From contig JADFWT010000008.1 of NCBI GenBank assembly GCA_015233785.1, positions 1 to 50,600 on the forward strand: a stretch of 50,600 bases of DNA. The letters are read 5' to 3'. Every line of letters begins with the position of its first letter. The stretch's first letter is position 1. Source of the DNA: Magnetococcales bacterium (GTDB lineage Bacteria > Pseudomonadota > Magnetococcia > Magnetococcales > JADFWT01). Shown one piece after another: positions 21,669 through 47,521 of this stretch. Below the pieces are notes generated by a model, which was not told where the DNA came from, made no database searches, and was given only the letters and a program-made list of their open reading frames with translations. The translations under genes and the position numbers were made by a program.

Positions 21669-21679
21669 GATGCCTTACC

Positions 21680-22806: not shown

Positions 22807-22825
22807 CGTGTTCAACCACCGCTTC

Positions 22826-26464: not shown

Positions 26465-29400
26465 GTCCTGTCTTCAGGTTGATGCCGAGCTGTTTCGCCA
26501 TCTCCATCATTATTTTTGATGCTGCATCAAACTCATACTCTGACAGTAAGTCAGATGCGGTTTCAATATTTTCTCGAAGCGTGGCAGGCATGGGCAGCGC
26601 TTGCAGCGCCTGCACGGTGTTCTCCGCTTCGGTATCAAAGAATTGCAGCTCATTCAGTGCTTTTCTGACGAGCGAATTTCTCTGTTCGATGCTTTCTTGT
26701 GTCTCATCGCTCTCGGGGGGGCGCTGGTCATCAGCGCTTGGTGAGTCCGCTGACGACACATGGGCTTTAATGGCGCGCTGCACGGCCTCGAATTCGTCAG
26801 CTGCTTCTTTCAGCCGCGCCTTGATTTCGTCGTGGTCCAGCGGCGTCCCCTTGAGGGATACCTCCAAAATTTGGGCTTTTTCTTGAAGGGTATGTGCCCC
26901 AATCGTTCCGGCGACGCCTTTCAGCGTGTGCGCATGACGTTGGGCCGTTTCCAAATCGTTGGTCATCAACGCGTTGGTGATGGCCTGTTCCATGGCTTGT
27001 TGGTTGTCACAGAATTTTAGCAGCAGTCGTCGATATCCTTGGAGGTTGCCCGACATTCGCATCAGGCCCTCACGGGTGTCGATCCCCTGAATATCGGGTG
27101 GCTCTTTAGCATCTGGCGTTGCGTCATCCGTTCTTTCGGGAGTGGGGGGCATGGTGGGGGGTGACTGGGGTGTTTGAGGCCGTATCCAGCGGGCCATGGT
27201 TGCAAACATTTTTCTCGGATCCACAGGCTTGGAGATGTGATCGTTCATGCCTGCATGGATCATCCGGTCTTTGTCTCCGACCATGGTGTTGGCGGTCATG
27301 GCAATGATGGGAAGATCTTTAAACGGTGCCTGGCGGCGAATGTTGTGCGTGGCCTGGAAGCCGTCCATCACCGGCATCTGGATATCCATCAGCACGCCAT
27401 CAAAGGACTCTTTATCGAGTTTCTCCAGCGCCTCCTGGCCGTGGTTGGCCACCACCGCCGTTACTCCGCCGCCGGCCAACAGATCCAGCGCCAACTCCTG
27501 ATTGATCTCATTATCTTCCACCAGCAGCACTTTGGCGCCGCGCAGGGTCTCTGCCATCTCAGTCAGGGATTGGCGCGGTTGGGTAGTGTGTCCGGCCTTG
27601 GTTTGTGCGGCTTCGGCGTCGCTCTGCAGCAGGAAGTCGGCGGTAAACGAAAACGTGCTGCCCTGACCTGCGGCGCTCTCTACCCAGATGGTGCCTTCCA
27701 TCATCTCCACCAGTCGTTTGCAGATGGTCAATCCCAGCCCTGTTCCACCATATTTACGTGTTGTTGAGCTGTCGGCCTGACTGAACGATTTAAACAGTTT
27801 ATTTTGCTGTTTAGGTGTCATTCCGATACCGGAATCCCGCACCGAAAAGGCCAGTGTGGCCCGGTGTTTTTGGCGGTCTTGAAGCGAAACGCCGAACGCC
27901 ACCTCTCCCGATTCGGTGAATTTGACAGCGTTATTTCCCAGGTTGATGAGAACCTGTCCCAGGCGCAGCGGGTCGCCTGTCAGATTCATGGGGACATCGG
28001 GGTCAATCTTCACGTGGAGGGTCAGTTTTTTCTCTTCGGCCTTGAGGCCAACCAGATTGCGCAGATTATCGAACACATCCTCCAGGTGGAAGTTGATCTC
28101 TTCCATCTCCAGCTGTCTCGCCTCGATTTTCGAAAAGTCGAGGATATCGTTAATAATACCCAGCAGCGCCTGGGCAGAACGATGGACTTTGTTGATATAG
28201 TTGTGTTGGCGCGGCTCGAGATTACAGCGCAGTGCCAGATAGGACATGCCGATGATGGCGTTCATGGGCGTGCGAATTTCATGGCTCATATTGGCCAGAA
28301 AATCGGACTTGGCCTGACTGGCCGCCTCGGCCTCATCTTTAGCTTGAATCAGGGCTATTTCATTGTCTCTTAGAGTTTTTTCAGCCGCTTTTCGGTCGCT
28401 GATATCCTCTTTGACGGCCAGATAGTGCGTGACAGCGCCGTCTGGATCCCGCAGCGGCGAAATGGAGCCGGATTCCCAGAAGAGGGTGCCGTCCTTCTTG
28501 CGGTTAAGCAGTTCGCCGAACCAGATGTTGCCCTGCTCAATGGTGGCCCATAACTCTTTGAAGGTCTTGTGAGACATTTTGCCGGACTTCAGGAGCCTTG
28601 GATTGCGGCCTATCACCTCTTTCTGGGTGTAGCCGGTGATACGGGTAAAGGCCGGATTGACGTACTCAATATTGGCCGCCGTATCGGTGATGATGACGGA
28701 GGCGGGGCTTTGCTCCACCGCACTGAGTAGTTTTCGCATCTCGCTTTCGGCTTTTTTTCTTTCCCGTATTTGGCGGCGCAGGCCCCAGTTCCAGATTAGG
28801 ACGAAGAGCAGAATAGCGGAGGCTACCATCAGGATCTGAATGATCAACCATGGATCATGTTTATTTTCAACTGTCACTGCGGACCATCTGCCGAGGATCG
28901 CTTGACGCTCCTGTTTATCCATGTGTCGGATCGCCTTTTCCAGCAGTTGGGCCAAGATCGGCCAGTCGCTGCGCACCCCCATGGCAAGATTAAGGTGAAA
29001 TGCGGTGTGCCCCGAGACCTGAAGGTTGGTGTAGCCACCCTTTTGGATATAGTGGCCTGCGGTGATCAGAGAGTCGATATAGGCGTCCACCCTTCCCTGG
29101 GTCAATTGAAGCAGTGCATCTTGCACATTGGCCACTGGAACCTGGATCAATCCGGGATAGTTCTGGCGTAGTATCTCTTCCAGCCAAAACCCTTTAATCA
29201 CGCCCACCCTTTTTCCTTCCAGGTTGATCAGGTCGTCGATATAGGCGCTCCCTTTCAAGGTGAAGACAACGGTCGGCAGAGAGAGATAGGGGGTGGTGAA
29301 TGAGGCGAACTGTTTGCGGTTGGCCGTCGGAACAGCCGCAGACATCATATCCACCTTTCGCTCTTTGAGGTCGTCAACCAGTTGATGCCATGCACGATTG

Positions 29401-31190
29401 GAGGTGGGTTCAAAGGTTAGTCCCAATATTTTCGACAGCGCCTGCAGATAGTCCCATGAGAGGCCGGAGAATTGACCCGTGGCGTCCTGAAACTCTATGG
29501 GGGCAAAGGAGGGGTCCGAGGCGACCTTGATGACGGGGTGCTGCTTGATCCACGCTTGTTCCGCCTTGGTCAGAGGAAGTTTTGGACGGCTTTTTTTAAC
29601 CTTTCCGGTCCAGGCTTGCAGAATGGCGGCTCGTTCCTGGGGGGTAATGTCATCCAGGGCTTTTTGCAGAATCTCCTTGAGGGTCGGCATGGCCTTACGC
29701 ACACCGATGGCGTTGATAGAGGCCGTCTGTTGAATGGTGTCGTACTCTTCCAAATTATTGATCAGCGCCTCGCCCATGGCGTGAATGGCGACGGCACGGT
29801 TGCCGATATAGGCGTCGGCTTCTCCTTTTGCCACGGCGTGCAGGGCATCCAGTGTGGAGTCGTGTTCTTGAACGCGTATTTTCGGAAAATCATTGTTCAA
29901 TACGGTGGTGATAAAGAATCCTCTCTCAACAGCGACGGTGCGTCCGGCCAACCCGGCCAGGGATCCGGCTTCAGTGTCGAGCTGGCGGGCAAAGATGCTG
30001 TGGGGTACCCGAATGTAGGGGTCGGTAAAGTGAAACAGGGGCAGTCGGTCTGGACGGGGTGTGATATCCATTAAGGCGTCCAACTCACCGGTCTGCGCAT
30101 CCGAGTAGATCTGTTTCCAGGGGCCGGGGACAATCTGCAGAATGTGGCCGATACGTCGATTGAGTGCGTGGATAAAATCAACGCCGATACCATGGGGACG
30201 GCCTTGTGAGTCGACAAAATCCATGGGTGGCCATTGGTTGTTGACGCCGACGCGAACCGTGGGGTGGTGTTCGATCCAGCTTTTCTCGTCGATTGTCAGG
30301 GTGCTCAGCATGGGCACTCTTTGCGTTTGCCGAGAGGGGAGATGAAGTGCCCTGGTGGGCAGCCAGGGGGCAAAGAGGCTTAGCTTTTCCGTCTCCGACA
30401 TGGCGGTCAGGACTTTATCCAGGATAGTGGCCAGCTCCGGCCAATCCTTACGCACGCCAAAGCGCTGTCCATTGAGTCCAGCCCCGTAAAGCGAAGCGAC
30501 CTCCAGATTCAGAATGCCGTTTTCTTGCGCGATGTACAGGTTGATACCCAGTACGCCGATATAGGCGTCGGCCTTGCTGGTGGCGACGGCCAGCAGTCCC
30601 TCTTTAGCTGTTTTGACCATCAGGGGGGTGATGTCTGGATGGTTCTCCAGAACCGATTTTGAAGAGGAGTATCCCTCCACCAGGGCCACGGTGTGTTGGC
30701 TTAGATCCTGTTGGGTTTTGATGTGGCCAAACCCCTTGCGGGTCATGATTACCAATGGCGTAGGGAGATAAATCTGCGTGAAATGAACAAAGGCTTCGCG
30801 TTCTGGGCGGTGGGACATGGTCGCCACCACATCCAGCGAGCGCTCTTTGACGCCCTGGACGATTTCCGGCCAGGAGAGTCCGGATGCGATGGTGATGTCG
30901 ATCCCCAGCTTGTGGCGTAGGTAGTTTCTGTACCCCAGGGCAATGCCGCGATAGTTTCCCCGTCTATCACGAAAGCTGTACGGGGCGTAATCGGCATCAA
31001 TGCCAATGCGAATGGTGGGGTGCGCCTTCAACCAGGCCTGTTCCTGCGGCGTCAGGTTGAGGGCCATTGACGGTTTGGTTTGGGCGTGACAGAGGGCCGA
31101 CAATCCCAGAACGACAATGAGAGAGGAGAGCGTCAGCAGGCGTCGTAGATGTTTCAGTATTGTTCGATGGCCGCATGACAGATCAATCAT
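26457..31190 (-). CDS. BvgS/EvgS-like sensor kinase with three solute-binding domains
   Basis: A 1577-residue inner-membrane sensor. The N-terminal signal is [16 protein letters not shown]. Three periplasmic SBP_bac_3 (Venus flytrap) domains follow, each starting with the same type of strand: [30 protein letters not shown] and [16 protein letters not shown] transmembrane segment (~residue 785, [18 protein letters not shown]) leads to a PAS domain with its PAC tail, HisKA (H970 in [14 protein letters not shown]), HATPase ([18 protein letters not shown]), REC ([12 protein letters not shown]) and Hpt ([15 protein letters not shown]). BvgS and EvgS normally have two flytrap domains; three is more elaborate. 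Ligands are probably amino acids or similar small solutes, but this is not shown. Confidence 0.94.
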
Positions 31191-31724: not shown

Positions 31725-33629
31725 TTATTGCGTGATGAGTTGCGGAGGTTGGACGACGCCTCCATTTTCCAGCCGTCTCATAATCATGAAGGTTCTAGGA
31801 CCCGCAATGCCGTCAGGGTGTAGGTGATGGGTGTTCTGAAAGCGAATCAGCATATTTTTTAGGGCCAATCCGAAGTACTCGGGATTGGTCGTAATTGTTG
31901 CTGGTTCTTTCTGAAAACGCGCTAACCATTGCCGAAAACGTTGCACATCATGACCCGCCAAACCGTAACTTAACGGGCGAAACCCAGCCCATGGAACCCG
32001 CCACATCAAAGTCAATTCTCGCTTTCTCCAGTAGGATTCCAGCATCGTCAACGACGCCTTGAGCCGTCTTCCATCCATGTGCAGAACGGCATGATGGTTA
32101 TTGAGGCCTACCAGTGGCACATGGATCGTCTGCCCGGCACGATTGCTTAGGGGGATCATTACCGGTCGATCCAGGTAACGAATTAACTTCCAACTGCCGC
32201 GTAATCGAACGCACTGGATACGTGAAGATGCAGCGAGTCCACATCCATCGATGGTGACCTTTTCAGTCAATTGTGCTTGCCAGAGTTTGGCCAAAGTGGT
32301 GACCGATCTTTCCAGGTCCGAGCCATCTTCCTCGGGCTTGATGAGTTTGGTCAGTTGTTCTTCCGTCAGGATCTCCAGGCTCGATATTGCGTTCTCTGTA
32401 GATGGTTGTGATGGGGTGGCGCCACGTGCAGGTTCGACGTGTTCTTCATGCTGCGGTGTTACGTCGGTCACAGGAAGGGTAGGGGTGCTCTCAACCACCA
32501 TCACCTCCTCTTCGATGGGCGGTTCAGGGGTTGGCAATGGGGGAGGGGGCGATTTTAGGGAGGAGGCCGCTTTTGGTGCTGATGTCTCTGTCGGCAGAGA
32601 CGCTTGAGATAGCTGGGCAGAAGATTTTGTTGTGGGGGATGGAAGGGATGGTTGAGCCGATTGAGGTTGGTTCTCCCAGGAGAGCTGCGTCAACCAGGCG
32701 TGGGGATCCCACTGTGCTGGTATGGAAAAGCGCACCAGGAGTAGTAGTAGAGTCGCTCCCATCAGCGTCCATGACCATCTCTTGATCCAGACGCCGAGGG
32801 GGGCCTGTTCCAGGCGAGGAGTGGTGCCGGAAAGCTCACGAATCGCTTGGCGTGCAATGCGCCGGTTGACCCGTTGGGCATTAAGTGAATAGGCTCCCAA
32901 TAGCGCCCGGTCACACAGCTTATTGATCACCCGAGGGGTGCCTTGGGAGGCGTGATGGATCATATTGAGGGCGCTGCGGGTAAACAGTGCATCGCTACGT
33001 CCGGCCAATCCCAGACGGTGACGTACATAGGCGTTTGTTTCACGCCGGTTGAACAGTGGAATGTGAAACGTCGCCGTAATACGCTGGGAGAGTTGGCGCA
33101 GTCCTGGACGCGCCAAGGTTTCGGCCAGCTCGGGTTGGCCAACCAGAATGATCTGCAATAATTTGGTTTCGCTTGTCTCCAGGTTGGTGAGTAGCCGCAC
33201 CTGTTCGAGGGCGTTGGCATCAAGGTTTTGCGCTTCATCAATGATTAATATCGCCTGGCGACCCTCGCTGTGAATCTGAAGTAGGCGTTTGTTCAGGGCA
33301 TCAAACAGCACCTTGGGGCGTCTGGCCCGTTTGGGGTATCGTGCGCCCAGTTCATCACAGATTGCCGCCACCAGATCCACCGGGTTGAGTCGGGGATTGA
33401 AAATCAATGCGCTGTCAACATTCTCCGAAAGCTGCTCTAAAAGGCAGCGAGTGAGCAGGGTCTTGCCTGCTCCCACCTCACCGGTCATCAGCACAAAGCC
33501 GCTGCTGCCGCGCACGCTATACAGCAAGTGGGCCAGGGCATCCCTGTGTTGGTTGCTGAGATGAAAAAAGCGTGGGTCTGGGCTGATGGAGAACGGCAGT
33601 GCGTTAAAATTGAAATAGTGTTGGTACAT
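31725..33629 (-). CDS. ExeA/GspA-like AAA ATPase with C-terminal peptidoglycan-binding domain
   Basis: A 634-residue inner-membrane ATPase. The N-terminal AAA domain (residues ~1-265) begins YFNFNALPFSISPDPRFF, typical of ExeA/GspA, and has Walker A GEVGAGKTLL, Walker B AILIIDEAQNLD and an arginine-rich sensor region. One transmembrane segment is near residues 288-303 (TLMGATLLLLLVRFSI). A Pro/Ser-rich periplasmic linker follows, then a C39-like beta domain (~450-540) and a peptidoglycan-binding fold (FQNTHHLHPDGIAGPRTFMI). ExeA normally uses ATP to help insert secretins through the cell wall. Here there is no secretin or ExeB, and it is the last gene of the peptide-export locus, so it may open the wall for the TolC-like channels. 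Confidence 0.88.
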   Translation of the reverse strand: MYQHYFNFNALPFSISPDPRFFHLSNQHRDALAHLLYSVRGSSGFVLMTGEVGAGKTLLTRCLLEQLSENVDSALIFNPRLNPVDLVAAICDELGARYPKRARRPKVLFDALNKRLLQIHSEGRQAILIIDEAQNLDANALEQVRLLTNLETSETKLLQIILVGQPELAETLARPGLRQLSQRITATFHIPLFNRRETNAYVRHRLGLAGRSDALFTRSALNMIHHASQGTPRVINKLCDRALLGAYSLNAQRVNRRIARQAIRELSGTTPRLEQAPLGVWIKRWSWTLMGATLLLLLVRFSIPAQWDPHAWLTQLSWENQPQSAQPSLPSPTTKSSAQLSQASLPTETSAPKAASSLKSPPPPLPTPEPPIEEEVMVVESTPTLPVTDVTPQHEEHVEPARGATPSQPSTENAISSLEILTEEQLTKLIKPEEDGSDLERSVTTLAKLWQAQLTEKVTIDGCGLAASSRIQCVRLRGSWKLIRYLDRPVMIPLSNRAGQTIHVPLVGLNNHHAVLHMDGRRLKASLTMLESYWRKRELTLMWRVPWAGFRPLSYGLAGHDVQRFRQWLARFQKEPATITTNPEYFGLALKNMLIRFQNTHHLHPDGIAGPRTFMIMRRLENGGVVQPPQLITQ

Positions 33630-33698: not shown

Positions 33699-34691
33699 TT
33701 AGGGGTGCCGACAACTGCGCACCGAAGCTGACGCCTCTTCCAGCGACCCGCTACGGGCAAAAGTGACTAGATAGCGCGCCAACTCCCGAAAGAGTAGCCG
33801 GACAAGATCGGCTCCGATCCACATCACGTACGGGCCGGGATTGCAGTCCAGCCAGCGATAACTGCCATCCTCGCTCGCGATGATATCCCAGGCAGCGTAG
33901 TGCAGACCCAACATGCGGTTGGCCGCCACCAACTGCGATTCTTGATGCTCGGGTAGTGTGTGCGGCTCAAAACGGCGCGTGGAGGTGCGTGAATCCACCC
34001 CGCCATCGCTGATCACCCGAAGTGACAACACCACCCGATCCGCCACAATATGGACCCGGATTACATCCCCTGTTGCTCGCTCCTGAAACATCACCGGTGC
34101 GCGTCGTACCTCCTCCAGACGTATTAGATCGTCAGGTCGCACCTCTCGGGTGGATCCAACGCCGATGGAGGGTTTGACCACACACGAAGGGTAATCGCGC
34201 AGAAAAGCCTCTGCCTGCTTCGGGTCGTTGGTGGTCAACGTGCGTGGGGCCGGAAATCCGCTGGCGCGCAACTTTTCGTATAATTGGGCTTTAGTGTCGT
34301 GGTCCAGATAGCCGCTGGTGAGAGGATTGACGACTAGACGGCCCAACTGGTGCAGGTGATCGAAAAATGCTCCTGTAGCAGCGCTGTAGGCCTGTTCTTT
34401 CAGGTAGACAAGTCGTTGCTCGGCATGGGAGATCTCATGCAGCATCGGTGGCAGAGAGGGGAGCGTGTTGGGGGCTGTGCAGCGAATATGAACCGCTTGA
34501 ATGTCGGAAAAATCCACCCCTTCCCAGGTCAGTTCTCCAGCGCCTATCGCCAACTTCGGCGTGCGTTTTCCTCCCAGGTTGATGTCCAGAACCACCGGTT
34601 CACCCCCTTGCGCCTCAACCTGTTGGCGGAGTGCTTCCAGTTGTGGGCTTCCGTGGTTGGCAAAAAGTGCAATACGTGGCATATGATTCAT
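33699..34691 (-). CDS. ATP-grasp enzyme, putative peptide maturase (downstream copy)
   Basis: A ~330-residue ATP-dependent ligase of the RimK/graspetide-ligase type. The start at 34691 (MNHMPRIALFANHG) is chosen by alignment with the paralogue at 35991-37046; 34682 is also possible, and an earlier TTG lies inside the terminator. The preATP-grasp region is at ~1-125. ATP-grasp features are GYLDHDTKAQLYEKLRASG, the nucleotide-binding Lys in CVVKPSIGVGSTREV, the glycine-rich loop and FQERATGDVIRVHIV, and the metal-binding WLDCNPGPYVM. The active site looks intact. It lies just beyond the three peptide genes and their terminator. Family knowledge: such enzymes form acyl phosphates and join them to amines or hydroxyls. 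That the peptides are the substrate is inference. Confidence 0.82.
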   Translation of the reverse strand: MNHMPRIALFANHGSPQLEALRQQVEAQGGEPVVLDINLGGKRTPKLAIGAGELTWEGVDFSDIQAVHIRCTAPNTLPSLPPMLHEISHAEQRLVYLKEQAYSAATGAFFDHLHQLGRLVVNPLTSGYLDHDTKAQLYEKLRASGFPAPRTLTTNDPKQAEAFLRDYPSCVVKPSIGVGSTREVRPDDLIRLEEVRRAPVMFQERATGDVIRVHIVADRVVLSLRVISDGGVDSRTSTRRFEPHTLPEHQESQLVAANRMLGLHYAAWDIIASEDGSYRWLDCNPGPYVMWIGADLVRLLFRELARYLVTFARSGSLEEASASVRSCRHP

Positions 34692-34830: not shown

Positions 34831-35100
34831 CTAGGAGCTAATGTTGATGTCGCCGATGGATGTGTTGTCGCTCACATCACCGCCACTCTGGCCTGCTCCA
34901 GCCATGGCTCCGGCATCACCACCAGCGCCGACACCGGTTCCCTCGGCGTACGCATTGTTGCCGCCGCTGGCAAAACCGCTGCCGCTGCCGTATCCGCTGC
35001 CCGCGTCTGCACCGGCTCCAGCGCCTGCAATACCGGTTACATCACCACCGGACTTGCCACTCTGATTAACGTCCACACCACCTGATTTATCAAAACTCAT
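34831..35100 (-). CDS. Gly/Ser/Asp-rich peptide, paralogue 1 (putative modified exported peptide)
   Basis: An 89-residue protein, third in transcription order. GAGGAG lies upstream of the ATG. It has no Cys, no Trp, no Leu and no hydrophobic signal peptide. The N-terminus (MSFDKSGGVDVNQSGKSGG) ends in a double glycine at 18-19, and another double glycine is at 7-8. The middle is Gly/Ala/Ser-rich with an aromatic patch (SGYGSGSGFASGGNNAYAEG). The last 26 residues, ending DNTSIGDINISS, are identical in all three paralogues. It is probably made in the cytoplasm, modified by the flanking ATP-grasp enzymes and exported by the C39-ABC system. No known family is recognised. Confidence 0.8.
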   Translation of the reverse strand: MSFDKSGGVDVNQSGKSGGDVTGIAGAGAGADAGSGYGSGSGFASGGNNAYAEGTGVGAGGDAGAMAGAGQSGGDVSDNTSIGDINISS

Positions 35101-35176
35101 GGTTCTCGCTCCTCTTGAAAGATTTATTATTTTCGATGAAATTCCGCGTTCTGATTCTTCAGTTGCGGCGTCATTG

Positions 35177-35446
35177 TTACGAGCTGATGTTGATGTCGCC
35201 GATGGAGGTGTTGTCGCTCACATCGCCGCCGCTCTGCCCTGCTCCAGCCATGGCACCGGCATCTCCGCCCACGCCTACGCCGGTACCTTCGGCATATGCA
35301 TTGTTTCCGCCCCAAGCGGAACCGTAGCCTCTGCCGCCACCGCTACCAGCATCGGCACCTGCGCCAGACACTGCCGCGCCGCTGACATCACCACCCGACT
35401 TGCCGCTCTGATTGACGTCGACACCACCCGATTGATCAAAACTCAT
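35177..35446 (-). CDS. Gly/Ser/Asp-rich peptide, paralogue 2 (putative modified exported peptide)
   Basis: An 89-residue protein, second in transcription order, with GAGGG upstream of the ATG. It matches paralogue 1 at both ends: MSFDQSGGVDVNQSGKSGG at the start and GQSGGDVSDNTSIGDINISS at the end. It differs in the middle: SGAAVSGAGADAGSGGGRGY, then a Trp-containing GSAWGGNNAYAEG. The GGNNAYAEGTGVG block is shared with paralogue 1 but not with paralogue 3. No Cys is present, so lanthionine or thioether chemistry is excluded, while Asp, Lys, Ser and Thr for ester or amide cross-links are available. Confidence 0.8.
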   Translation of the reverse strand: MSFDQSGGVDVNQSGKSGGDVSGAAVSGAGADAGSGGGRGYGSAWGGNNAYAEGTGVGVGGDAGAMAGAGQSGGDVSDNTSIGDINISS

Positions 35447-35509
35447 GGAATTACCCTCTCTCTATTTAGTATTGAAAATGACTGCTGTTGCGCTCTGATG
35501 TGTCTGTCA

Positions 35510-35770
35510 TCACGAGCTGATGTTGATATCGCCAATGGAGGTGTTGTCGCTCACATCGCCACCGCTCTGACCGGCTCCAGCCATGGCACCGGAATCTCCG
35601 CCGACACCAACACCGGTCCCAATGGGATCGACATTCCGTACCCATGCGGTGCCGCTGCCGGAGCCGCTACCTGCGTCGGCCCCTGCGCCAGCCCCGGCAA
35701 TTCCGGTGACATCACCACCGGACTTGCCGCTCTGATTGACATCCACGCCTCCAGATTGATCAAAAGACAT
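35510..35770 (-). CDS. Gly/Ser/Asp-rich peptide, paralogue 3 (first behind the sigma-54 promoter)
   Basis: An 86-residue protein. The ATG at 35770 is chosen for its GGAGG ribosome-binding site and for alignment with its two paralogues; an in-frame upstream codon at 35791 is not supported. It has the same N-terminal 19-residue block and the same 26-residue C-terminal block. The middle is shorter and different (SGSGSGTAWVRNVDPIGTGV), with Trp, Arg and Pro in place of GGNNAYAEG. It is the promoter-proximal gene, about 70 bases downstream of the predicted transcription start. Confidence 0.8.
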   Translation of the reverse strand: MSFDQSGGVDVNQSGKSGGDVTGIAGAGAGADAGSGSGSGTAWVRNVDPIGTGVGVGGDSGAMAGAGQSGGDVSDNTSIGDINISS

Positions 35771-35850
35771 AATTGATACCTCCACAATCATCAGAATGTA
35801 AGATTATTCGGCGTTATTCTTATCTTTACTCATGGTTCTGATAACTATAA

Positions 35851-35866
35851 AGCAATAGACGTGCCA
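35851..35866 (-). promoter_or_regulatory. Sigma-54 (-24/-12) promoter of the peptide genes
   Basis: The - strand reads TGGCACGTCTATTGCT, an exact match to the sigma-54 consensus (TGGCACG, four bases, TTGCW). Predicted transcription starts near 35841, about 70 bases before the first peptide start codon. The DNA just upstream is very AT-rich, as expected for a bendable enhancer loop. A sigma-54 activator gene lies at 49768-50600 in the same locus. Confidence 0.9.
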
Positions 35867-35921
35867 TATTATTAAAAAAAATTTTATGCAAATATTCAAT
35901 AAGATATGTTGGATATGAGGC

Positions 35922-35941
35922 GTGGTGGTCGGTGTTGGTCG
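35922..35941. promoter_or_regulatory. Candidate activator-binding direct repeat
   Basis: Two adjacent 10-mers, GTGGTGGTCG (35922-35931) and GTGTTGGTCG (35932-35941), differ at one base and repeat with exact 10-bp spacing, one helical turn. They lie about 80-100 bp upstream of the predicted sigma-54 start, a normal place for an enhancer-binding protein. The binding protein is not shown. Confidence 0.4.
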
Positions 35942-35990
35942 GGCGATTAGTCCACTCATGAAAAGCAGGCTGTCCAGCTCTCTCACACTT

Positions 35991-37046
35991 TTACACCTGC
36001 GGTTTGTATTTTGAGTGCTCAAACTCAAATAGAATACGCAGCATGCGGCGCAGAAAAAGCTGCGGACGGGAGATCGCTTGTGGGTCTGTCTGGAGAGAGG
36101 GGGTAGACGACCGCCGTCCTTTGCGCAGATAACCGCCTAGCGCTGTCAGCAGGCGTGTACGGTGGGGTGCTGGCAGCGTCTCCAGTCGTGGATCGGGATC
36201 AAGATCATAGATCCAAGCCTGTCCATCGTCGCCTACCACATAACTCACCAGGCCCCATCCAAGTGGCGGAATCTTGCCTTTGGCCAGCAGTGGGGCCAGG
36301 GACCGCAGTATGGAAGGCGAAGGTTTGACCGACTGGAACCGCTCCAGGCGCTCCAGGGCAGGCGTGGCGTCGGGGGCTTCATGACGGAGGTGTTGGACCC
36401 AGTAGCCTGCTAGGAAATAGCTACGCTGCAACGGCCCGGATATCACCTTGGCCAACATGACTGGCGGCTTGTGCTCAGCCACCAGATCTTGCTGCTGGCG
36501 ATGGGTGAATCGTTGCCACGCACCGCGCCCGCTGGCCGGTCGCCACACCACCTGCTGATGACGTGCCATGAAACGTTCTGCGGCCACGGCTTCATTGGTC
36601 AACAGCAACTCAGGAACGGCCACCCCCGCCATGCGCAGACGTTCCAATTCGACAAATGGGCGCTGGTGACGAATATGCACCTCGGCATGGTTAAGTACCG
36701 CTGTGCCGCGCCGGGAGAGCTCCTGCAAAAAACTGAGTACAGCGCTGTATCCTTGCTGCTCCGCCAGATGGTCATCTCGCCAGACACTCCAGTCCCGCTG
36801 CACCGCCGCATCAGGAATCACTGGATTGACGTAACGGAAACCATACAGAAATACCCGCTCCATTGAGGTCATCTCTACGCCGTTCCAGAGCAGTCGCTGG
36901 GCGTCCATTGTCAGGGCATCCTCCAACAACGACAGGTCGCCAATCAATACATCAGGGCCGATGCGCTGGGCCAGTCGCTCCACCCACACTCTTGATGAGG
37001 GATCTCCGGCATGAAATAGCGCCAAACGCGGTGTGGGTGCAGGCAT
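35991..37046 (-). CDS. Divergent ATP-grasp-like enzyme (upstream copy)
   Basis: A 351-residue paralogue of the ATP-grasp enzyme at 33699-34691. Its N-terminal strand (RLALFHAGDPSSRVWVERLA) lines up with that of the other copy, and the overall order of blocks is kept: an HVRCTAP-like strand region is VFLYGFRYVNPVIPD here, the Lys strand is QVVWRPASGRGAWQ, and the metal site is WIYDLDPDPRLET. Key positions differ: the VVKPS Lys is replaced by Arg (VVWRPAS), and the D-x-N-P metal motif becomes DLDPDP. It may be weakly active, altered in specificity, or a substrate-binding partner for the intact copy. GGGAGAG precedes the ATG. It lies 13 bp after the TolC-like gene and directly upstream of the peptide promoter. 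Confidence 0.72.
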   Translation of the reverse strand: MPAPTPRLALFHAGDPSSRVWVERLAQRIGPDVLIGDLSLLEDALTMDAQRLLWNGVEMTSMERVFLYGFRYVNPVIPDAAVQRDWSVWRDDHLAEQQGYSAVLSFLQELSRRGTAVLNHAEVHIRHQRPFVELERLRMAGVAVPELLLTNEAVAAERFMARHQQVVWRPASGRGAWQRFTHRQQQDLVAEHKPPVMLAKVISGPLQRSYFLAGYWVQHLRHEAPDATPALERLERFQSVKPSPSILRSLAPLLAKGKIPPLGWGLVSYVVGDDGQAWIYDLDPDPRLETLPAPHRTRLLTALGGYLRKGRRSSTPSLQTDPQAISRPQLFLRRMLRILFEFEHSKYKPQV

Positions 37047-37059: not shown

Positions 37060-39033
37060 CTACCAATACTCGTGGTGGTGAATGATCTTATCTAGAAAGC
37101 GGGGGGCGCCACGACTCTTGCCCAGTAGACGAATGCGGTACTGGTCGAAGGCGTTGACCGTACCTTGCAGTGCGGCCTCCTGGGTCAACAGGCCACGTGC
37201 CGCCAACAGCTTCGAATAGGCTCGGCGTCGATCCATCTGCGCCGTGAGGTGGGCGAGCTTGGCCTGATGAACATCCTGGGATTTTACGATTAGCTCCCAC
37301 TCGCTAATGGAACCCTTGTTTTCGGCAATACGTTTAGCGTGGGAGAGGGTGTCGTTGGCCAAATGCAAGGCGGTTTGAGCGGCCTCTTCGCGCTGTTGGG
37401 ATGACAGCAGACCAGACACCGCATCGTACACCTCGCGAACAATGCTATGACTGACAGCGTCACGATCCAGCTTGCGTCCCTCCAGGTTGATGCCGGCCAG
37501 CGTTACCTGACCTTCGGCGGCCCGATGGCCTAGCACCCGTTTGAAGTTCACTGTGGTGGACATTGCCTGGGTGTCGGGCTCGGTGAGATTGACCGACATC
37601 GCCTGGGTCATGGAGCGGTAGCCGTATGTGGAGTTGTCCTGGGAATGGCTGAAGTCTGCGCTGAGACTCAGGTCAGGACGCGACTGATGTTTGCGATAAC
37701 GATGCTCCAGAGTATCGGCTTTCAGATGGAAGTCGGCCATCTTCATTTCGGGCCTCTGCGCCAGGGCCTGTTTTGTCAGCGGCTCTAGATCCAGCTCCAA
37801 TCTCTCCATGGGTGGGCTTTTCAAGAGATGATCAAACCCGATGGGAAGAATGAGCGTCTGCTCCAGGGCGTTGCCTTGTTCTTCGATCAACACCCCTAAT
37901 TTCAATGAGGCCGTTGCCAGCGCCTGGCGCGCCTCTTCCTCTTGAATCTGGCGCTGCTTCAGCTCCACCGCCATTTGTTGACGGTCGTAATTGCGTGCCT
38001 GTTGCTCAGCCACCATTCGAGCCAGATGCCCATAACGTACTTGGGCGCTGTAACGGTTATCCACCGCCGCCAGAAGCCTGAGAAATGCCTCGGCGCTATC
38101 CCAGTAGGCGCTGTCCACCTGGGCCAGGATGCCGTTGATGAATGCATCGAGCTGTGCATCGCCGCGTGCGCGATTGATTTCGGCCTGACGTAATGCCACA
38201 TCCTGTGTCGCCATGCGGCCAAAGCCCTTCATGTACGGCAGAGGCATCCACAGGTTGAGTGCCAATGCGGCCCCCCAAGGGCGTTGGAAGGCGTTGCGCC
38301 TGCTGTCGTAGTAGGTCTCCTTCATCGAAGCGCTTTGGGTCAGCGACAGTTGAGGTCCCCATGGTAACTGCTGGCGGATGGCCACCGTCACGCTGCGGGT
38401 CTCCAGTGGGCCGTTTGCCTCGCCGGAGTGTACCCGATACGAACGGGTCGTGTAGCCGCTGCTCTGTTGTAGATAACCCATGTGGGTCATCTTGGGGTAT
38501 CCATCCACCACCGAGCTGGTGATTGGAATGGTCAGTACGCTATTGCTGCCAGTGAGCGGTTGAAGATTACGTAGATAGACTGTTCCGGAACGGCGGCGTT
38601 CGTAAGTGACCGACTCGGTGCGGCCAACGCTGACCACAAATGTGGGGTCGAATACCGCTTCCGCCTGTTGCAGGGCCAAACGTGCCTTGTCGGCATCCAG
38701 TCCGGCGATGCGCAGCGAGAGATTTTTGCGCAGTGCCCGGATGTATGCCTGACGTGGTGTGATCAATACCCCTTTCCACCCTCTCATCGACCGCCACGCA
38801 CCTTGGGCGTTGTTGGCGTTGTTGAAGCTTCGCTGCAGAGTCCGGTAGCGTCGGCGCTCCTGAGCTGTAGGGACAAAATCGAGAAAATCGGTTAACGGTA
38901 TTGGTTCCAGTACCGCTTCGGTCTTTTCGGTGGCCGGTTCGGCCCGTGATGCGGCTGGAAGCATTACCACCCAACATAGCCCCAGTCCCAACAGCGCTGT
39001 GCTTCGTACCCCACGCAGAATCAGGCCACTCAT
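37060..39033 (-). CDS. TolC-like outer-membrane channel protein, third of three
   Basis: A 657-residue outer-membrane efflux protein homologue. It has a signal peptide (STALLGLGLCWVVMLPAASRA), then an N-terminal segment of ~90 residues not typical of TolC. The repeated OEP pattern follows: RQAYIRALRKNLSLRIAGLD starts the first half, and PLTKQALAQRPEMKMADFHL starts the second. Each half has long periplasmic helices and short beta-strands. It is longer than E. coli TolC (about 490 residues). The ATG overlaps the stop of the preceding TolC-like gene by 4 bp. It probably forms the exit channel of the locus, alone or together with its two neighbours. Confidence 0.88.
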   Translation of the reverse strand: MSGLILRGVRSTALLGLGLCWVVMLPAASRAEPATEKTEAVLEPIPLTDFLDFVPTAQERRRYRTLQRSFNNANNAQGAWRSMRGWKGVLITPRQAYIRALRKNLSLRIAGLDADKARLALQQAEAVFDPTFVVSVGRTESVTYERRRSGTVYLRNLQPLTGSNSVLTIPITSSVVDGYPKMTHMGYLQQSSGYTTRSYRVHSGEANGPLETRSVTVAIRQQLPWGPQLSLTQSASMKETYYDSRRNAFQRPWGAALALNLWMPLPYMKGFGRMATQDVALRQAEINRARGDAQLDAFINGILAQVDSAYWDSAEAFLRLLAAVDNRYSAQVRYGHLARMVAEQQARNYDRQQMAVELKQRQIQEEEARQALATASLKLGVLIEEQGNALEQTLILPIGFDHLLKSPPMERLELDLEPLTKQALAQRPEMKMADFHLKADTLEHRYRKHQSRPDLSLSADFSHSQDNSTYGYRSMTQAMSVNLTEPDTQAMSTTVNFKRVLGHRAAEGQVTLAGINLEGRKLDRDAVSHSIVREVYDAVSGLLSSQQREEAAQTALHLANDTLSHAKRIAENKGSISEWELIVKSQDVHQAKLAHLTAQMDRRRAYSKLLAARGLLTQEAALQGTVNAFDQYRIRLLGKSRGAPRFLDKIIHHHEYW

Positions 39034-41054
39034 CGCGCTACCTCCAACTGTGTCACCGAAATGTCTGATGGCGTGTTGGCCCGAGTATCGGTCCCATGCG
39101 GTGTGATGGATCCCAACTTACCCATGGCCGCCTGCAGTCCAAAGCGGGCCTCCTGAAGACCGATGTGCTGCTGAATGGTTTGCTGTCGTGCGGCCAGCAG
39201 TTCACCGCTCTTGACGATCACCTCATATTCGGTGACCCGGTGCGGATCGAAAGTCTGTTCCGCTTCACCCGATGTATCCCCGATGGTTCCGCCCACCGCC
39301 TCGACGGCACCAGAAGCGTCAGGCGCTTCGTCTTCCATACGACCATAAAGACGCGACACCCGCTGGTAGGCCGCAGCTGCCAGCCCCTGCTTTCGACGAG
39401 CGTTCTGTACCCGTTGGGCCGCGCTCAACCAGTTGGCATACGCACTCTGTACTTCCTGGGTGATCCGCCGTTGGGTGCGGGCCAGAGCTGTCTGGAGACG
39501 CAGGCGCTCTTCGCGCAGTCGACCCACCGCTGCATGGGCCGCTTTGTTCTGCCACGGGTAGCGATAACTGACGCCGCTGGATAGATCAATGCGGTCGGGA
39601 CGCGAAACACGGGTCATCGACTCCTCAAATGACTTGAATCCATACACCGCATTGCTCTGACTGCCGGAAACCGACAGCGCCAGTGAGGCGTCTGGGCGGG
39701 CGTTAGATTTTGCACTATTCAACTGAATCTCCGCATACCGGATCGCTAACCGTTGGCGAGCCAGATCAGGATGGCGCGTTGTGGCCTCCTGGATCGCCTC
39801 GGATAGCGTGATCTCCGGGCGGGCGTCGATCCGATCCAGGGCTTCCCGATAGCCTGCGGGCAGGTAGATCACCCCCGGATCAAACACCAATAGCTCGTTG
39901 AGGGCGTTAGAGGCCGTTAAAAGTTGGTTCAGCGCTTGAGTCTCCTGTGCATTGAGCCGGGCCTGCTCGGCCCTCGATTGGGCCTGGGCATAACGGGTGG
40001 CGAGGCCAGCCTCTACCAACCGTCCTATTCGGGTCGTTAGTGCCGCCGTCCGACCACGACTGTCGATCATCGCCTTGAGTAGGTGGGCGCTGCGAACCAG
40101 GTTCCAGTAGGCAAGGCCCACTCGGTGGAGCGTATCGTTCATGCTGCGGCGCAGGTCAGCGCTGGCCTGTTGCCGGGTTACACCGGTCTTCAGAAGCTCG
40201 TTCTCGCGGCTGGCGTAATCGCCCCAATTACGGGCATACGGTACCGGAAGCGATACAGTGCCGGAGACCGAGGTGGTCCAGGGACGCCCATAGGAGCCCA
40301 CCGTAGGGTCGTCGGAGCTGGCGTTGATGGCGTATTTGTTGTCCTTGCGGGTGGTCGTCTGGGTGACATTGACATCCATCCCGGACGGCAGCGGCTGGGT
40401 GATGGAGAGTGTGTAGACGGTGCTTTTGTCCGGCCCAGTGGGATCGGCCTCGCTGGCATCAATGGTGGACGGGTAGTACCCTCCTGGACGTTTCTGATCG
40501 AACATCAGAAAAGCCACCGGACTCTCGGAGTCGTAAATGGTGAACCGATCCTGCGTAATGTCTAACCCCTCGGTCTGTGCCCGCACGCAGGCCGGGTTGG
40601 AGGTAGGGCAGGCGATGGTGGCCTTCTTGAATTTCCAATCTTTCTCAGTGCGGTCGTAGGTCTTGCTGCGGCTGTAGTTCACTGAAAAAGCCAGGTAGGG
40701 ATCAAAATTGGCCTCGGCTATCTGCGCGCCCTGTCGAGCCACCCGACTCTGGAGCCGTTGGCGCTTGAGGGTGATGTTGTTTTGGCGGGCCTGCTCCAGC
40801 GCCTGCTCCAAGGTGATCTCTCGCCAGCTACGCCCCTTGAGAAGCGCGTGGCGGGTCACTGGGTAGCGCCTCTCCAACAGCCGGTTTAAATCTCCAGCTG
40901 ACCACCAGCCACCGGTCTTGTCGGATGCCGCCTCCAGCGGCTCCACCAAAGTTGCCGTACCCACGCCTAACAGCAGAACCATAACCAGCGCCGGAATGGA
41001 ACAAACGTTGCCATCACCGCTCACTTTGCACCTCGTTTGGTCAATGTTGCTCAT
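39030..41054 (-). CDS. TolC-like outer-membrane channel protein, second of three
   Basis: A 674-residue OEP-family protein with a signal segment (PALVMVLLLGVGTATLV). Family landmarks are ITLEQALEQARQNNITLKRQ in the first half and ITLSEAIQEATTRHPDLARQ in the second, each followed by long amphipathic helices. An insert with CPTSNPACV (~residue 160) holds two Cys that may form a disulfide in the periplasm; the corresponding region of the first TolC-like protein also has a Cys pair (SLCVRVDGETVSGSC). It overlaps both neighbouring TolC-like genes by 4 bp (ATGA), so the three are translationally coupled. Confidence 0.9.
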   Translation of the reverse strand: MSNIDQTRCKVSGDGNVCSIPALVMVLLLGVGTATLVEPLEAASDKTGGWWSAGDLNRLLERRYPVTRHALLKGRSWREITLEQALEQARQNNITLKRQRLQSRVARQGAQIAEANFDPYLAFSVNYSRSKTYDRTEKDWKFKKATIACPTSNPACVRAQTEGLDITQDRFTIYDSESPVAFLMFDQKRPGGYYPSTIDASEADPTGPDKSTVYTLSITQPLPSGMDVNVTQTTTRKDNKYAINASSDDPTVGSYGRPWTTSVSGTVSLPVPYARNWGDYASRENELLKTGVTRQQASADLRRSMNDTLHRVGLAYWNLVRSAHLLKAMIDSRGRTAALTTRIGRLVEAGLATRYAQAQSRAEQARLNAQETQALNQLLTASNALNELLVFDPGVIYLPAGYREALDRIDARPEITLSEAIQEATTRHPDLARQRLAIRYAEIQLNSAKSNARPDASLALSVSGSQSNAVYGFKSFEESMTRVSRPDRIDLSSGVSYRYPWQNKAAHAAVGRLREERLRLQTALARTQRRITQEVQSAYANWLSAAQRVQNARRKQGLAAAAYQRVSRLYGRMEDEAPDASGAVEAVGGTIGDTSGEAEQTFDPHRVTEYEVIVKSGELLAARQQTIQQHIGLQEARFGLQAAMGKLGSITPHGTDTRANTPSDISVTQLEVAR

Positions 41055-42898
41055 GACCCCTCCCTGATCTGCTTCAGCTCACCACGCACTGCCCGCAGAT
41101 TGATTTTGGCTTTCTGTACCGCTACCTGGGCGTCGATCAAACGACCTCGTGCCCCAGAGAGCTCCGCATAGCGTTGTAGATATTGAAACTGGGAGATCAA
41201 CCCTTCCTTCTGCATGCGTCGTGCGGTGGCCAATGCCTGCCGGGCCAGACCCAACTTGCGTCGTGCTAAACTCAATGTCAGGCCAGCGCTGTTGAGGCGT
41301 GCTAAAAGGCTATTTACCTCCTGGGTTACCGTCATCTCCCGGCTACGGGTCTGATCCTGAACCTGAATCAGATCGGCCTTGGCGCGACTATACTGTGCCC
41401 GGACATCTTCGTTGCCCAGTGGGATGGTGAAACGCACCCCAATGTAGGTCTTCTTGGTGTCAGGATCTCCCAACGCCCAGAGTGACTCGCCGAGGCTGTT
41501 ATAGCCCCAGGCTGCGTCCGATTGGCCAAGGTTGTGGGAGATGGTGAGCGCCAGGTCGGGACGTAGCTGGCGCTTGCGGTGCCGCTTGTAGAGGTCGGCC
41601 CGTTCCACTGCCACCCGAAGAGATTTGAGATCGGCCCGCCGGGTCATCGCCACTTTCAGGGAATCCTCAAATCCCTCCACACTGCTCTCATCCACCGCCT
41701 CCAGGATATTGCCGGCTACCGGAAACACCTCAGGCGGTAGATTAAGCTGCTCGGCAAGGAGTAGTGAGGCGCGAACCAGTGTCTGCCAAGCTGCCTCTTC
41801 GCCGTCTCGGGCAGCCGCCAGCGATTGGCTGGCCTGTATCTGTTCATAGCGGGTCACCTCTTGAGCTTCAAAGAGTCGCCGCGTTCGACCGGCCAGTGCC
41901 GCCATGCGCTTTCTATGATCCTGGGATGAGGCCACATTCATCATTGCTTGCGCCACATCCCAATAGGCGCTGGAGACCGACTGTACAATGCTGTTGGACA
42001 TGTCATCTACCTGATGACGTGTCTGGTATTGATCCAGTCGCGCCATCTGCGCCTGCACCGCAGAGGTAGAGCCCAACTTGCCAAAATTTTTGGAGTAGGG
42101 CAGGGGGGTGTTGAAACTGGCCGACAGGTTGCTGGCCCACTCCTTGGTGCCCATATCGGTGGCGATCATCAACGATGAGACCGAGGATGACTTGTCCAAG
42201 GTGTAGGGGGTCAGGGTGGACTCCAGGGATAGTGCCAGGGAACCGCCCCAGGGAAACAGCTTTGAACCACCCAGTGATCCGGTCCAGGACTCCGCCCAGT
42301 GGGTCATGTAGCTGCTGGCATACTCCAGCTCGGTGCTGATGGTAGGCGCGGTACAGGACCCGCTTACCGTTTCGCCGTCAACGCGTACGCAGAGCGATTC
42401 GCTGGAGTTATCCAGGTTCATGGTGCCGAACGCCTCTTCAAAGGCGTCCCAATCTTCACTCGCCTTACGGTAGCGGGTGATCATGTCGGCGCGCTTCTTG
42501 GTGCGATACACCGCATAATCCACCCCCATGCTGAAGGTGGGACTGAACGAAGCCTCGGCTTCTTGGATCGCAAACTTAGAGAGCGACACCTGATGTTGCA
42601 TCTGGCGAATATCCAGGCTTTTTTGGCGCGCCATCTGCTGAGCCTGGGCCAGGGTGACCGGACGGATCTCCCCCCCTTCCAGCAGCTCTCGGGCACCGTA
42701 TTGCCGCTTCTCCACTGCTTGGCGAAGCTGGTGCATCACCTGCTCCTGTCGTTCGCCAAACCAGCGCCACTCGGCACCTGAACGCCTCTCGGCTCCGAGG
42801 GGTGAGGCTACCATCAACGCCACCGACAACAGCGCCAAAATCATTCCGTATCTAATCGGAAATCTGACCATCGACTTGATGTTCACCACGCTCTCCAT
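41051..42898 (-). CDS. TolC-like outer-membrane channel protein, first of three
   Basis: A 615-residue OEP-family protein with a signal peptide (YGMILALLSVALMVASPLGA). Landmarks are VTLAQAQQMARQKSLDIRQM in the first half and SLKVAMTRRADLKSLRVAVE in the second, separated by beta-strand and helical segments. A Cys pair lies at about residues 165-175. It starts 5 bp after the FHA gene stop and overlaps the next TolC-like gene by 4 bp. The three TolC-like proteins are clearly diverged from one another, not recent copies. Confidence 0.9.
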   Translation of the reverse strand: MESVVNIKSMVRFPIRYGMILALLSVALMVASPLGAERRSGAEWRWFGERQEQVMHQLRQAVEKRQYGARELLEGGEIRPVTLAQAQQMARQKSLDIRQMQHQVSLSKFAIQEAEASFSPTFSMGVDYAVYRTKKRADMITRYRKASEDWDAFEEAFGTMNLDNSSESLCVRVDGETVSGSCTAPTISTELEYASSYMTHWAESWTGSLGGSKLFPWGGSLALSLESTLTPYTLDKSSSVSSLMIATDMGTKEWASNLSASFNTPLPYSKNFGKLGSTSAVQAQMARLDQYQTRHQVDDMSNSIVQSVSSAYWDVAQAMMNVASSQDHRKRMAALAGRTRRLFEAQEVTRYEQIQASQSLAAARDGEEAAWQTLVRASLLLAEQLNLPPEVFPVAGNILEAVDESSVEGFEDSLKVAMTRRADLKSLRVAVERADLYKRHRKRQLRPDLALTISHNLGQSDAAWGYNSLGESLWALGDPDTKKTYIGVRFTIPLGNEDVRAQYSRAKADLIQVQDQTRSREMTVTQEVNSLLARLNSAGLTLSLARRKLGLARQALATARRMQKEGLISQFQYLQRYAELSGARGRLIDAQVAVQKAKINLRAVRGELKQIREGS

Positions 42899-42902: not shown

Positions 42903-44279
42903 CTACATGAAGGCCTGCCACTGGTTAAGCAGCGGCACGTCCCGTTTCAACATCTCTTCCACCAAATAGCCGAAAAGCTGGAATCTGACTTTCATTGCCA
43001 TGTTGGTCTGGGGATTCTGTTTCAGTAATACCAGACGATCCTGGGCGCTGCTGTATGCCAGAATCTCTTCACGTTTAGGGGGGGTGTCCTTGCTGCTGCT
43101 CTTGGATGGGTCGGGAAAACGCTGCTTGAAATTGCGAATTGTTACCATCTCTCCGGCGATTCCCAACAGCGCCACCACGTCATCCGCTACCCGACGTTGT
43201 CCACCTCCCTTGCCACTTGTGACCAAACCCAGCTGATGCATCTGTTTCAGCGTCTGGTTGATCTCCTTTTCAGCCTGTTTAAGCTTCCCTTCGGCCAGGG
43301 CAAGGTGGAAATGGCGTTCAAAGCGGTAAAACAGAACGGTTGCCACCTGATCTTGAATCTGTAGGTGATTGGGGTGGGCTTTGTGAGTCTCATCTATTTT
43401 CTTGGCGTGCTTGTCAAGCTCATTGAAATGCTTCTTGGTTTGATCTTTATTTGGTAGTGTGGCAAGATCTTCGTGGGCCACACTGAACCGCTTCAGAATC
43501 TTGGCATTTTCCACTGCCAATTGGTCGCTGTTGTCACTGCCCAGTAGCCAAAAGGCCATTGCGGCCACCACCACCAATACTCCCCCTCCCACCAGGGCCA
43601 GCTTCATTCCTGTACTGCCCTGGGAGGCGGGTTGCTTTGCTGCGGTCTGATCGTCATGATCCAGTGTCTCACGCATGGTCGCTGCCGGGGCGCGTGTCTC
43701 CTCGTCCTGCCTGACCGTCGCTTCCAGCTCCTCCTCTTCATGACGCTTCTCCTCCAACTGCGCCATGTGGTCGCCCACCTGATTGCCGTAGATGGTCTCC
43801 ATCTCCTCGTTGTCCTGGGGCGGCTGACCGCTGCCCACGCTGGTGATTTCGTCGGCTTCCATCTCCGGGCGATCCAGCACAAAGCGGAACTTCACCGGAC
43901 CAAAGCGCACGTAGTCACCGGATCGCAGGCGCCGCTCCTGACTGATGCGCTCATCGTTGATGAACACACCGTTGGTGCTGCCTTGGTCCTTAACGCCCCA
44001 GCTGCCGTAGGCCACCAGCAAGGTCGCGTGGTGCCCGGAGACCTTTGGGCTTTTCAGTGCCACATCATTACTGGCGCTGCGTCCAACCTGCATCTCTTGG
44101 CCCTTCAGCTCGATCTCCAGCCCCGCTTGGGAGGCATCCAACGTGCTGTCGTCCACACAGACCAGCTTGGCAGGTGGGGTGGAACCCTTGGGGCCACCAT
44201 GCTTTCCTGTCGTTGTCGCGGCTTCGGTGACGTTGGCATCCATAATGGTGAGATCTTCTGCGTCCGATGATTCTTCCAT
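42903..44279 (-). CDS. FHA-domain membrane protein of the export locus
   Basis: A 458-residue single-pass membrane protein. CGGAGGA precedes the ATG. A cytoplasmic FHA domain (about residues 38-135) shows the phosphothreonine-binding signature: QVGRSASNDV, KVSGHHATLL and QGSTNGVFINDERI. An acidic, Glu-rich linker follows, then a transmembrane helix (~222-246, LALVGGGVLVVVAAMAFWLLGS) and a helical periplasmic domain of ~210 residues. FHA domains bind phosphothreonine, so the exporter may be assembled or gated by protein phosphorylation; no Ser/Thr kinase is in the window. The gene lies between the ABC exporter and the TolC-like genes, so it probably belongs to the apparatus. Confidence 0.88.
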   Translation of the reverse strand: MEESSDAEDLTIMDANVTEAATTTGKHGGPKGSTPPAKLVCVDDSTLDASQAGLEIELKGQEMQVGRSASNDVALKSPKVSGHHATLLVAYGSWGVKDQGSTNGVFINDERISQERRLRSGDYVRFGPVKFRFVLDRPEMEADEITSVGSGQPPQDNEEMETIYGNQVGDHMAQLEEKRHEEEELEATVRQDEETRAPAATMRETLDHDDQTAAKQPASQGSTGMKLALVGGGVLVVVAAMAFWLLGSDNSDQLAVENAKILKRFSVAHEDLATLPNKDQTKKHFNELDKHAKKIDETHKAHPNHLQIQDQVATVLFYRFERHFHLALAEGKLKQAEKEINQTLKQMHQLGLVTSGKGGGQRRVADDVVALLGIAGEMVTIRNFKQRFPDPSKSSSKDTPPKREEILAYSSAQDRLVLLKQNPQTNMAMKVRFQLFGYLVEEMLKRDVPLLNQWQAFM

Positions 44280-47499: not shown

Positions 47500-47521
47500 G
47501 ACGTCACTCTCCAGGGGCAAA

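Follow-up and report, generated by a model that had tools for sequence, protein, structure and literature searches.

Graspetides are usually read as a leader followed by a compact core. The described systems that come closest to the locus analysed here share parts of it. In the mir cluster of Micromonospora rosaria (MirA/MirB/MirC/MirD), the source of the group 21 graspetide rosaritide, MirC is required for the activity of MirB, and the precursor is accompanied by a TIGR04187-type ligase, a PpiC/SurA-like partner of the TIGR04500 type and an ABC exporter with a peptidase domain (PMC13097080). The fuscimiditide synthetase ThfB, whose natural loop has 10 residues, closes engineered Gly-Ser loops of 4-72 residues (PMC12291112), and structures exist of the plesiocin synthetase PsnB (PDB 7drm-7drp). 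Class IIb microcins are small, Gly-rich secreted peptides with conserved N- and C-terminal parts and export through a type I secretion system (T1SS) (PMC11634061).

The window (the whole stretch of 50,600 nucleotides of Magnetococcales DNA that was analysed) contains three tandem genes for candidate precursor/substrate peptides, ordered P3, P2, P1 with spacers of 63 and 76 bp:

34831-35100, minus strand: P1, putative precursor/substrate peptide of 89 aa
35177-35446, minus strand: P2, putative precursor/substrate peptide of 89 aa
35510-35770, minus strand: P3, putative precursor/substrate peptide of 86 aa with an AWVRNVDPIG-type middle, transcribed first in the array

These peptides had been predicted to carry constant ends of 19 and 26 residues around a variable middle. 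End-to-end comparison bears out the C-terminal figure, with the last 26 residues identical and the first mismatch from the C-terminus at residue 27, and extends the N-terminal one from 19 to 21 residues, with Q5K as the sole mismatch in residues 1-21. P1-P3 contain the middle motifs YGSGSGF, GRGYGSAW and TAWVRNVDPIG as well as the SGG(V)DV pairs, as described. At the DNA level the array is a 346-bp tandem unit in 2.8 copies with 77% matches (TRF). Codon pattern, RBS-like sequences at the start sites and conservation in other genera support P1-P3 as real coding genes. A 225-aa antisense ORF (35099-35776) mirrors the Gly-rich coding sequence and was rejected as a gene, and all genes neighbouring the array are on the same strand. 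Between P3 and the next long gene, an AT-rich ORF with a TTG start and a hydrophobic stretch (35804-36028, minus strand) has no convincing counterpart in homologous clusters and is probably not a gene.

The array lies between the genes of two ATP-grasp proteins, to which the original prediction had tied the peptides:

33699-34682, minus strand: GRASP1, graspetide-synthetase-like ATP-grasp ligase with K170, D230-S231-R232 (DxR) and D279-x-N281 intact
35991-37046, minus strand: GRASP2, degenerate ATP-grasp homologue in which the ATP-binding Lys, the DxR motif and the metal-binding Asn are all lost

That tie proved very strong. Searches returned 61 peptide family members, 59 of them full-length, in 16 genomes (1-7 per genome) of Magnetococcales, where relatives occur in five further genera, and of Azospirillaceae-type Alphaproteobacteria, and GRASP1 is encoded in all 16. 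In the order to which Skermanella belongs, GRASP1 was detected in 9 of 82 genomes and peptides in 9 of 81, and these were the same nine genomes; the peptide profile used for this control included members from the positive genomes, and the negatives are its informative part. The same six Magnetococcales genomes were positive for both. A class-wide sample held three GRASP1-positive genomes among 385, one of them new (G144) and with an adjacent peptide, and a sample of the phylum of genome G000 held six among 399, all already known. Enzyme and peptide were never found apart in the genomes searched, most of which are drafts (G000 is 72% complete). GRASP1 adjoins or sits within the peptide array in most genomes; Skermanella aerolata (Azospirillaceae) has four peptides, one alone adjoining GRASP1. 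GRASP2 is present in 15 of the 16 genomes, the remaining one being an 80%-complete draft, and the exporter described below in 14.

The peptides are a previously unnamed family. The 59 full-length sequences matched no informative Pfam or NCBIfam model (five gave chance keratin-head matches), a PDB search with the peptides returned no relative, and the family was not found described in the main texts of the freely accessible papers searched. In viral contigs, none of 69 pattern matches encodes a relative, and a phage origin was rejected on this ground; a plasmid search gave two distant ATP-grasp matches only, in other phyla.

Apart from the start Met, the 59 full-length peptides all share Q13, G15, K16, G18, G19, G23, G71, D75, N76, T77 and I79, and Q.GK.GG and DNT.I are the only family-wide invariant motifs. 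Judged from this alignment, the family-wide constraint is a motif pair shorter than the full ends seen in the window: position 20 varies among D, E, N and Q and position 72 among D, G, S and E, and D72, S78 and D81 of the C block all vary. K16 is the sole Lys in 57 of the 59 peptides and is separated from D75 by 56-66 residues. The C-terminus alternates I-x-I-x-I, and the tail is not Ser-rich, with Ser as the final residue in 47 peptides and Val, Phe or Pro in 12.

The middle is 73% Gly, Ala and Ser, and its remaining residues keep a two-residue spacing: 70 adjacent pairs of non-small residues were counted where 210 were expected, recurrence at distance two was seen 312 times against 206 expected, and the alternation persists at lag 8. 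The corresponding z-scores (-14 and +10) are inflated by the pooling of related sequences; the pattern is present in very different members. By its sequence, then, the middle is an alternation of small and non-small residues with a silk-like strand rhythm, not a freely varying core. It has no conserved D, E, K or T that a graspetide synthetase could use in the 59 peptides, and the invariant donors and acceptors, K16, D75 and T77, are divided between the two ends, with no conserved set in one compact core. The idea of a folded repeat protein held together by packing of its two SGG(V)DV motifs found no support in AlphaFold2, which returned no fold from the 59 sequences (pLDDT 49.8), a weak test for a shallow, Gly-rich family modelled unmodified. 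Two divergent members, one whose frame is open for the C-terminal half only (G118_5, L083 2760-2909) and one with QAGKQGGQ (G117_2, L071 2173-2439), suggest decay or specialisation within large arrays.

Constant ends around a variable middle are a real and ancient feature of the whole family: 56 full-length relatives beyond P1-P3 retain this pair of end motifs. Variation is unequal along the length: pooled over P1-P3, pN/pS is 0.09 at the N end (pN 0.042) and 0.00 at the C end (pN 0.000), against 0.29 in the middle. The corresponding pS values of 0.45, 0.41 and 0.57 led us to reject recent neutral duplication of the three genes. These ratios indicate that the ends are under strong purifying selection, with a middle that is looser yet constrained. 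The part of the original prediction that fell is the diversifying core: the pN/pS of the middle is 0.13-0.69, every value below 1, in all array-bearing genomes tested, although alignment of so Gly-rich a region is uncertain; its two-residue rhythm is strict; and one type of middle is found in three genera. Positive selection on the middle was rejected on the pN/pS values.

That shared type, AWVRNVDPIG (in G000, G022 and G008), differs by 0.35 across genera and by 0.41 from other types in the same genome, whereas the ends attached to it are closest within the genome (0.15 against 0.44 across genera for the N end, 0.03 against 0.18 for the C end). End differences in Magnetococcales arrays amount to 11% within a genome and 30% between genomes. 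For the dispersed paralogues of the Skermanella group the figures are 37% between paralogues and 14% to the closest match in a different species, and types are kept as orthologues across species, with up to seven paralogues per genome. Because dispersed paralogues differ by 37% and tandem ones by 11%, identity of the ends within a genome is in part homogenisation. The end identity in the window thus appears partly local, with ancient paralogue types whose tandem ends are kept alike through either gene conversion or co-adaptation to a single set of enzymes.

In profile searches GRASP1 matched PsnB best (7drm, E 5e-36), then MdnC, MdnB, PruB, CdnC and AMdnB, with RimK after all of these. A ligase of the graspetide synthetase clade therefore sits beside the peptides, and its ATP-binding and DFR-motif residues are intact, with Ser at the aromatic position: K170, D279 and N281 are invariant, as is a DSRT stretch whose DSR aligns with the DFR of PsnB. 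A "TIR" stretch had been considered for the DFR motif and was dropped on this alignment. We propose from these residues that GRASP1 is active. GRASP2 is its paralogue (E 1e-11), and PsnB is its best match both by sequence profile (E 4e-17) and by fold, for an AlphaFold2 model of pLDDT 80 (E 1.8e-17); PsnB is thus the best solved relative of both proteins, at about 20% identity. GRASP2 has Arg in place of the ATP-binding Lys (WR.A.G), no DxR and D.DP in place of DxN, so that the catalytic residues of PsnB are missing, and it has gained a conserved C-terminal helix (LFLRRM..I.F..E.SK). These features suggest a pseudo-enzyme that binds or scaffolds. Directly downstream of GRASP1 lies a gene for an ExeA/GspA-like ATPase with a peptidoglycan-binding domain, similar to PEP-CTERM ATPases (31725-33629, minus strand), a homologue of which occurs on the peptide contig in G008 (L032 12517-13362).

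A further putative maturation protein is encoded at the far end of the cluster:

49022-49771, minus strand: PpiC/SurA-like protein of the TIGR04500 peptide-maturation type, with a Rotamase domain and without the N-terminal domain of MirC

This PpiC corresponds to MirC of the rosaritide system. It matches TIGR04500 ("putative peptide maturation") at E 6e-17 over model positions 89-328 only, and the open frames of its relatives are too short to hold a further 90 or so residues. GRASP2 may take over substrate recognition. Both assignments lie below the curated cut-offs: GRASP1 scores 75.5 of 350 bits against TIGR04187 (ATP-grasp ribosomal peptide maturase; E 4e-21) and PpiC 61.9 of 180 bits, and the MirC-like N-domain of group 21 is absent. 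With the rosaritide cluster the locus shares the types of ligase and PpiC/SurA-like partner and an exporter that includes a peptidase domain, but it differs in other respects as well. Its precursors are unrelated to that of rosaritide, two-ended and with a Gly-X middle; several are encoded per genome, some far from the cluster; the dead ATP-grasp paralogue is an addition, as are the HlyD, three TolC, FHA and sigma-54 activator genes; and a cNMP domain is fused to the exporter, whose C39 domain is often dead. From plesiocin it differs in the DSR of GRASP1 and in peptides that lack repeated core motifs. From its sequences, the layout would work like a graspetide system; formal membership is unproven: the scores fall short of the curated cut-offs, the product links are predicted and the donor/acceptor layout is unlike that of the known groups as described.

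The genes between GRASP2 and PpiC encode an export system:

37060-39033, minus strand: TolC-like outer membrane protein 3 (PF02321), with an orthologue in homologous clusters
39030-41054, minus strand: TolC-like outer membrane protein 2 (PF02321), with an orthologue in homologous clusters
41051-42898, minus strand: TolC-like outer membrane protein 1 (PF02321), with an orthologue in homologous clusters
42903-44279, minus strand: FHA-domain protein (PF00498), one likely membrane segment (by eye), conserved in homologous clusters
44305-47574, minus strand: exporter ABC protein with cNMP-binding, C39/C39-like and ABC domains
47522-48940, minus strand: HlyD-type membrane fusion protein, from domain matches, recurring in homologous clusters

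The TolC, FHA, HlyD, PpiC and sigma-54 activator genes recur in clusters of the Skermanella group. The three consecutive TolC-like genes (37060-42898) have separate orthologues in Magnetococcales and Skermanella-type genomes. Over its whole length the exporter matches TIGR01846 (HlyB) best among the NCBIfam models, and as in HlyB-type systems with a C39-like domain, its C39 is inactive in many members; the fused cNMP domain, a substrate of 81-93 aa without RTX repeats and three outer-membrane proteins set it apart from them. The window exporter keeps the C39 Cys, His and Asp, and the Cys is kept in four other Magnetococcales genomes; it is replaced by Ser, Thr, Ala or Asn in G008, in G144 and in all Azospirillales copies checked. 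Since G18-G19 is invariant even where the C39 peptidase is dead, this pair is not simply a cleavage site, and a GG leader as a family-wide rule was rejected. Binding of the FHA domain to phospho-Thr77 was considered, and no kinase was recognised in the cluster. In Skermanella aerolata, the peptide cluster also encodes, next to the FHA gene, a nucleotide-cyclase-like protein with an FHA-like C-terminal domain (L046 17713-18633, by eye), which would fit the exporter's cNMP-binding domain.

Control by sigma-54 appears to extend beyond the cluster:

35852-35866, minus strand: predicted sigma-54 (-24/-12) promoter TGGCACGTCTATTGC, starting 96 bp upstream of the P3 start codon
49768-50600, minus strand: sigma-54-dependent activator with a GAFTGA motif and a Fis-type HTH, cut by the contig end

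The site TGGCACGTCTATTGC, which the doubtful ORF 35804-36028 spans, is the sole 11/11 sigma-54 match in the 50.6-kb window. Among the 57 peptide genes with enough upstream sequence, 28 have a site of at least 9/11 within 250 bp, compared with 2.2% of shuffled upstream sequences, and the dispersed orphan genes of Skermanella type have theirs at 88-92 bp upstream. The activator has a full-length orthologue in Skermanella. Promoter sites together with a GAFTGA activator in the cluster point to one regulon of local and orphan peptides.

The reading we favour, which we put at an even chance as a whole, is that a graspetide-like system matures and secretes the peptides, acting on their constant ends. 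Modification of the peptides by GRASP1 is very likely, and their secretion by the T1SS of the cluster is probable. It is somewhat less probable, though still the better guess, that the constant ends are the modified part. GRASP1, of the PsnB/TIGR04187 lineage, would work with its dead paralogue GRASP2 and the SurA/PpiC-like partner, phosphorylate a side-chain carboxylate in the constant ends and join it to a nucleophile of the constant ends. Candidate groups are Lys16 as amine donor and, in the DNT block, Asp75 as acceptor and Thr77 as hydroxyl donor, which would allow either an isopeptide bond between Lys16 and Asp75 or an ester of Thr77 inside the C block. A staple between the ends or within the C block is favoured because the invariant usable residues (K16, D75 and T77) all lie in the ends. 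The Lys16-Asp75 bond in particular is put forward tentatively; it would staple the two ends around a Gly-X loop of 56-66 residues, far outside the natural graspetide loop range of 3-12 residues (PMC12291112). Such a geometry is possible because a synthetase of the same broad class closes engineered Gly-Ser loops of up to 72 residues: ThfB likewise joins stem ends around a long flexible Gly/Ser loop, but its case is engineered and has an ester stem, and no natural long-loop graspetide is described in PMC12291112. The product would leave the cell in one step through the cNMP-controlled ABC/HlyD/TolC exporter; in many genomes no leader would be removed, the C39 domain having lost its cysteine. 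The local sigma-54 activator would switch on both the array and the orphan peptides. Several points speak against this reading, among them the scores below the curated cut-offs and the Ser in place of the aromatic residue of the DFR motif. The window exporter keeps its C39 cysteine and GG pairs occur in both conserved motifs, which makes leader cleavage possible in this genome, and the conserved end residues could equally serve recognition or secretion. A more far-reaching version, with a natural giant-loop staple of a peptide of 80-90 residues, from Lys16 to the DNT block around a silk-like strand, or fibre cross-links made by the ATP-grasp pair, and one sigma-54-controlled machine serving several precursors, scattered ones included, with no leader removal, strikes us as rather doubtful.

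The retained C39 triad in the window and the invariant G18-G19 are also what a leader-core RiPP with a conserved tail would show, the N block being cut after the GG by C39, the bonds being made in the C block (D72, D75, T77, S78 and D81) and the middle serving as a spacer; graspetide precursors often have GG motifs and cores rich in D, T and S (PMC8939145). We hold this to be unlikely: the GG is invariant although the C39 Cys is replaced in so many exporters, the N block has no Phhx-type leader motif, and with D72, S78 and D81 variable the C block is left with one acid and one hydroxyl. The rhythm of the middle, with its excess at distance two and deficit of adjacency, and the I-x-I-x-I C-terminus would suit a secreted structural protein whose silk- or amyloid-like middles stack outside the cell while the ATP-grasp enzyme builds a covalent fibre or matrix by coupling each chain's Lys end to the DNT end of its neighbour. 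Up to seven paralogues per genome, orthologous across species, agree with this, and intermolecular graspetide cross-linking has been engineered (PMC12291112), but AlphaFold2 shows no structure, the peptides have no PDB relative, and the enzymes are expected to be cytosolic and to act ahead of export, and a TolC channel would not let long polymers through; we consider this distinctly unlikely.

In their three-part layout, their size, their richness in Gly, Ala and Ser, the T1SS genes of the cluster and the frequent Ser at the end, the peptides recall a class IIb-microcin-like bacteriocin, with a leader, a Gly-rich toxic core and a conserved C-terminus bearing a ligated group. Class IIb microcins are recognised by a signal ending in GG or GA within the first 15 residues, a Ser-rich C-terminus ending in Ser and an immunity-type membrane ORF within 200 bp (PMC11634061). 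Here the invariant GG comes later, at 18-19, with a dead C39 domain in the exporters of many relatives; the tail is not rich in Ser and has another final residue in 12 of 59 peptides; the only candidate for an immunity-type ORF beside the peptides is the unconserved, AT-rich 35804-36028; and an ATP-grasp pair takes the place of siderophore-ligation genes; purifying selection and orthologous dispersed copies are also unlike arms-race diversity, and we regard a microcin as highly unlikely. A structural or signalling product is favoured over a toxin by the orthologous types, by pN/pS below 1 and by the lack of an evident immunity gene. That the ATP-grasp pair acts elsewhere, for example in RimK-like amino-acid tailing, and that the peptides are T1SS cargo whose ends are export or regulatory signals, is very unlikely too: RimK-type enzymes are distant relatives of GRASP1 and C-terminal signals are usual in T1SS cargo, but the closest solved structures are graspetide synthetases, not RimK, and in the genomes searched neither enzyme nor peptide occurs without the other.

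Under the graspetide-like reading, an enzyme, its dead twin and a chaperone-like partner accompany a substrate whose invariant reactive residues lie at opposite ends of a Gly-rich strand. If the ends are joined, the system would be a natural counterpart of engineered protein stapling by graspetide synthetases and would supply an enzyme set with dozens of natural loops; no such product was found described for Magnetococcales or Skermanella in the literature searched. It would also give a pseudo-ATP-grasp protein a role open to testing, provide a C39-like exporter with a substrate that is not cleaved, and present a RiPP-like regulon that includes precursor genes in trans.

The remainder of the window carries a second, separate HlyB/HlyD-like export pair at its other end (212-4536, plus strand) and an IS3-type transposase-like ORF with an integrase core (8643-9239, minus strand, by eye). 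The region 19388-31190 (minus strand) encodes response regulators and large hybrid histidine kinases, one of them with several periplasmic solute-binding-like domains.
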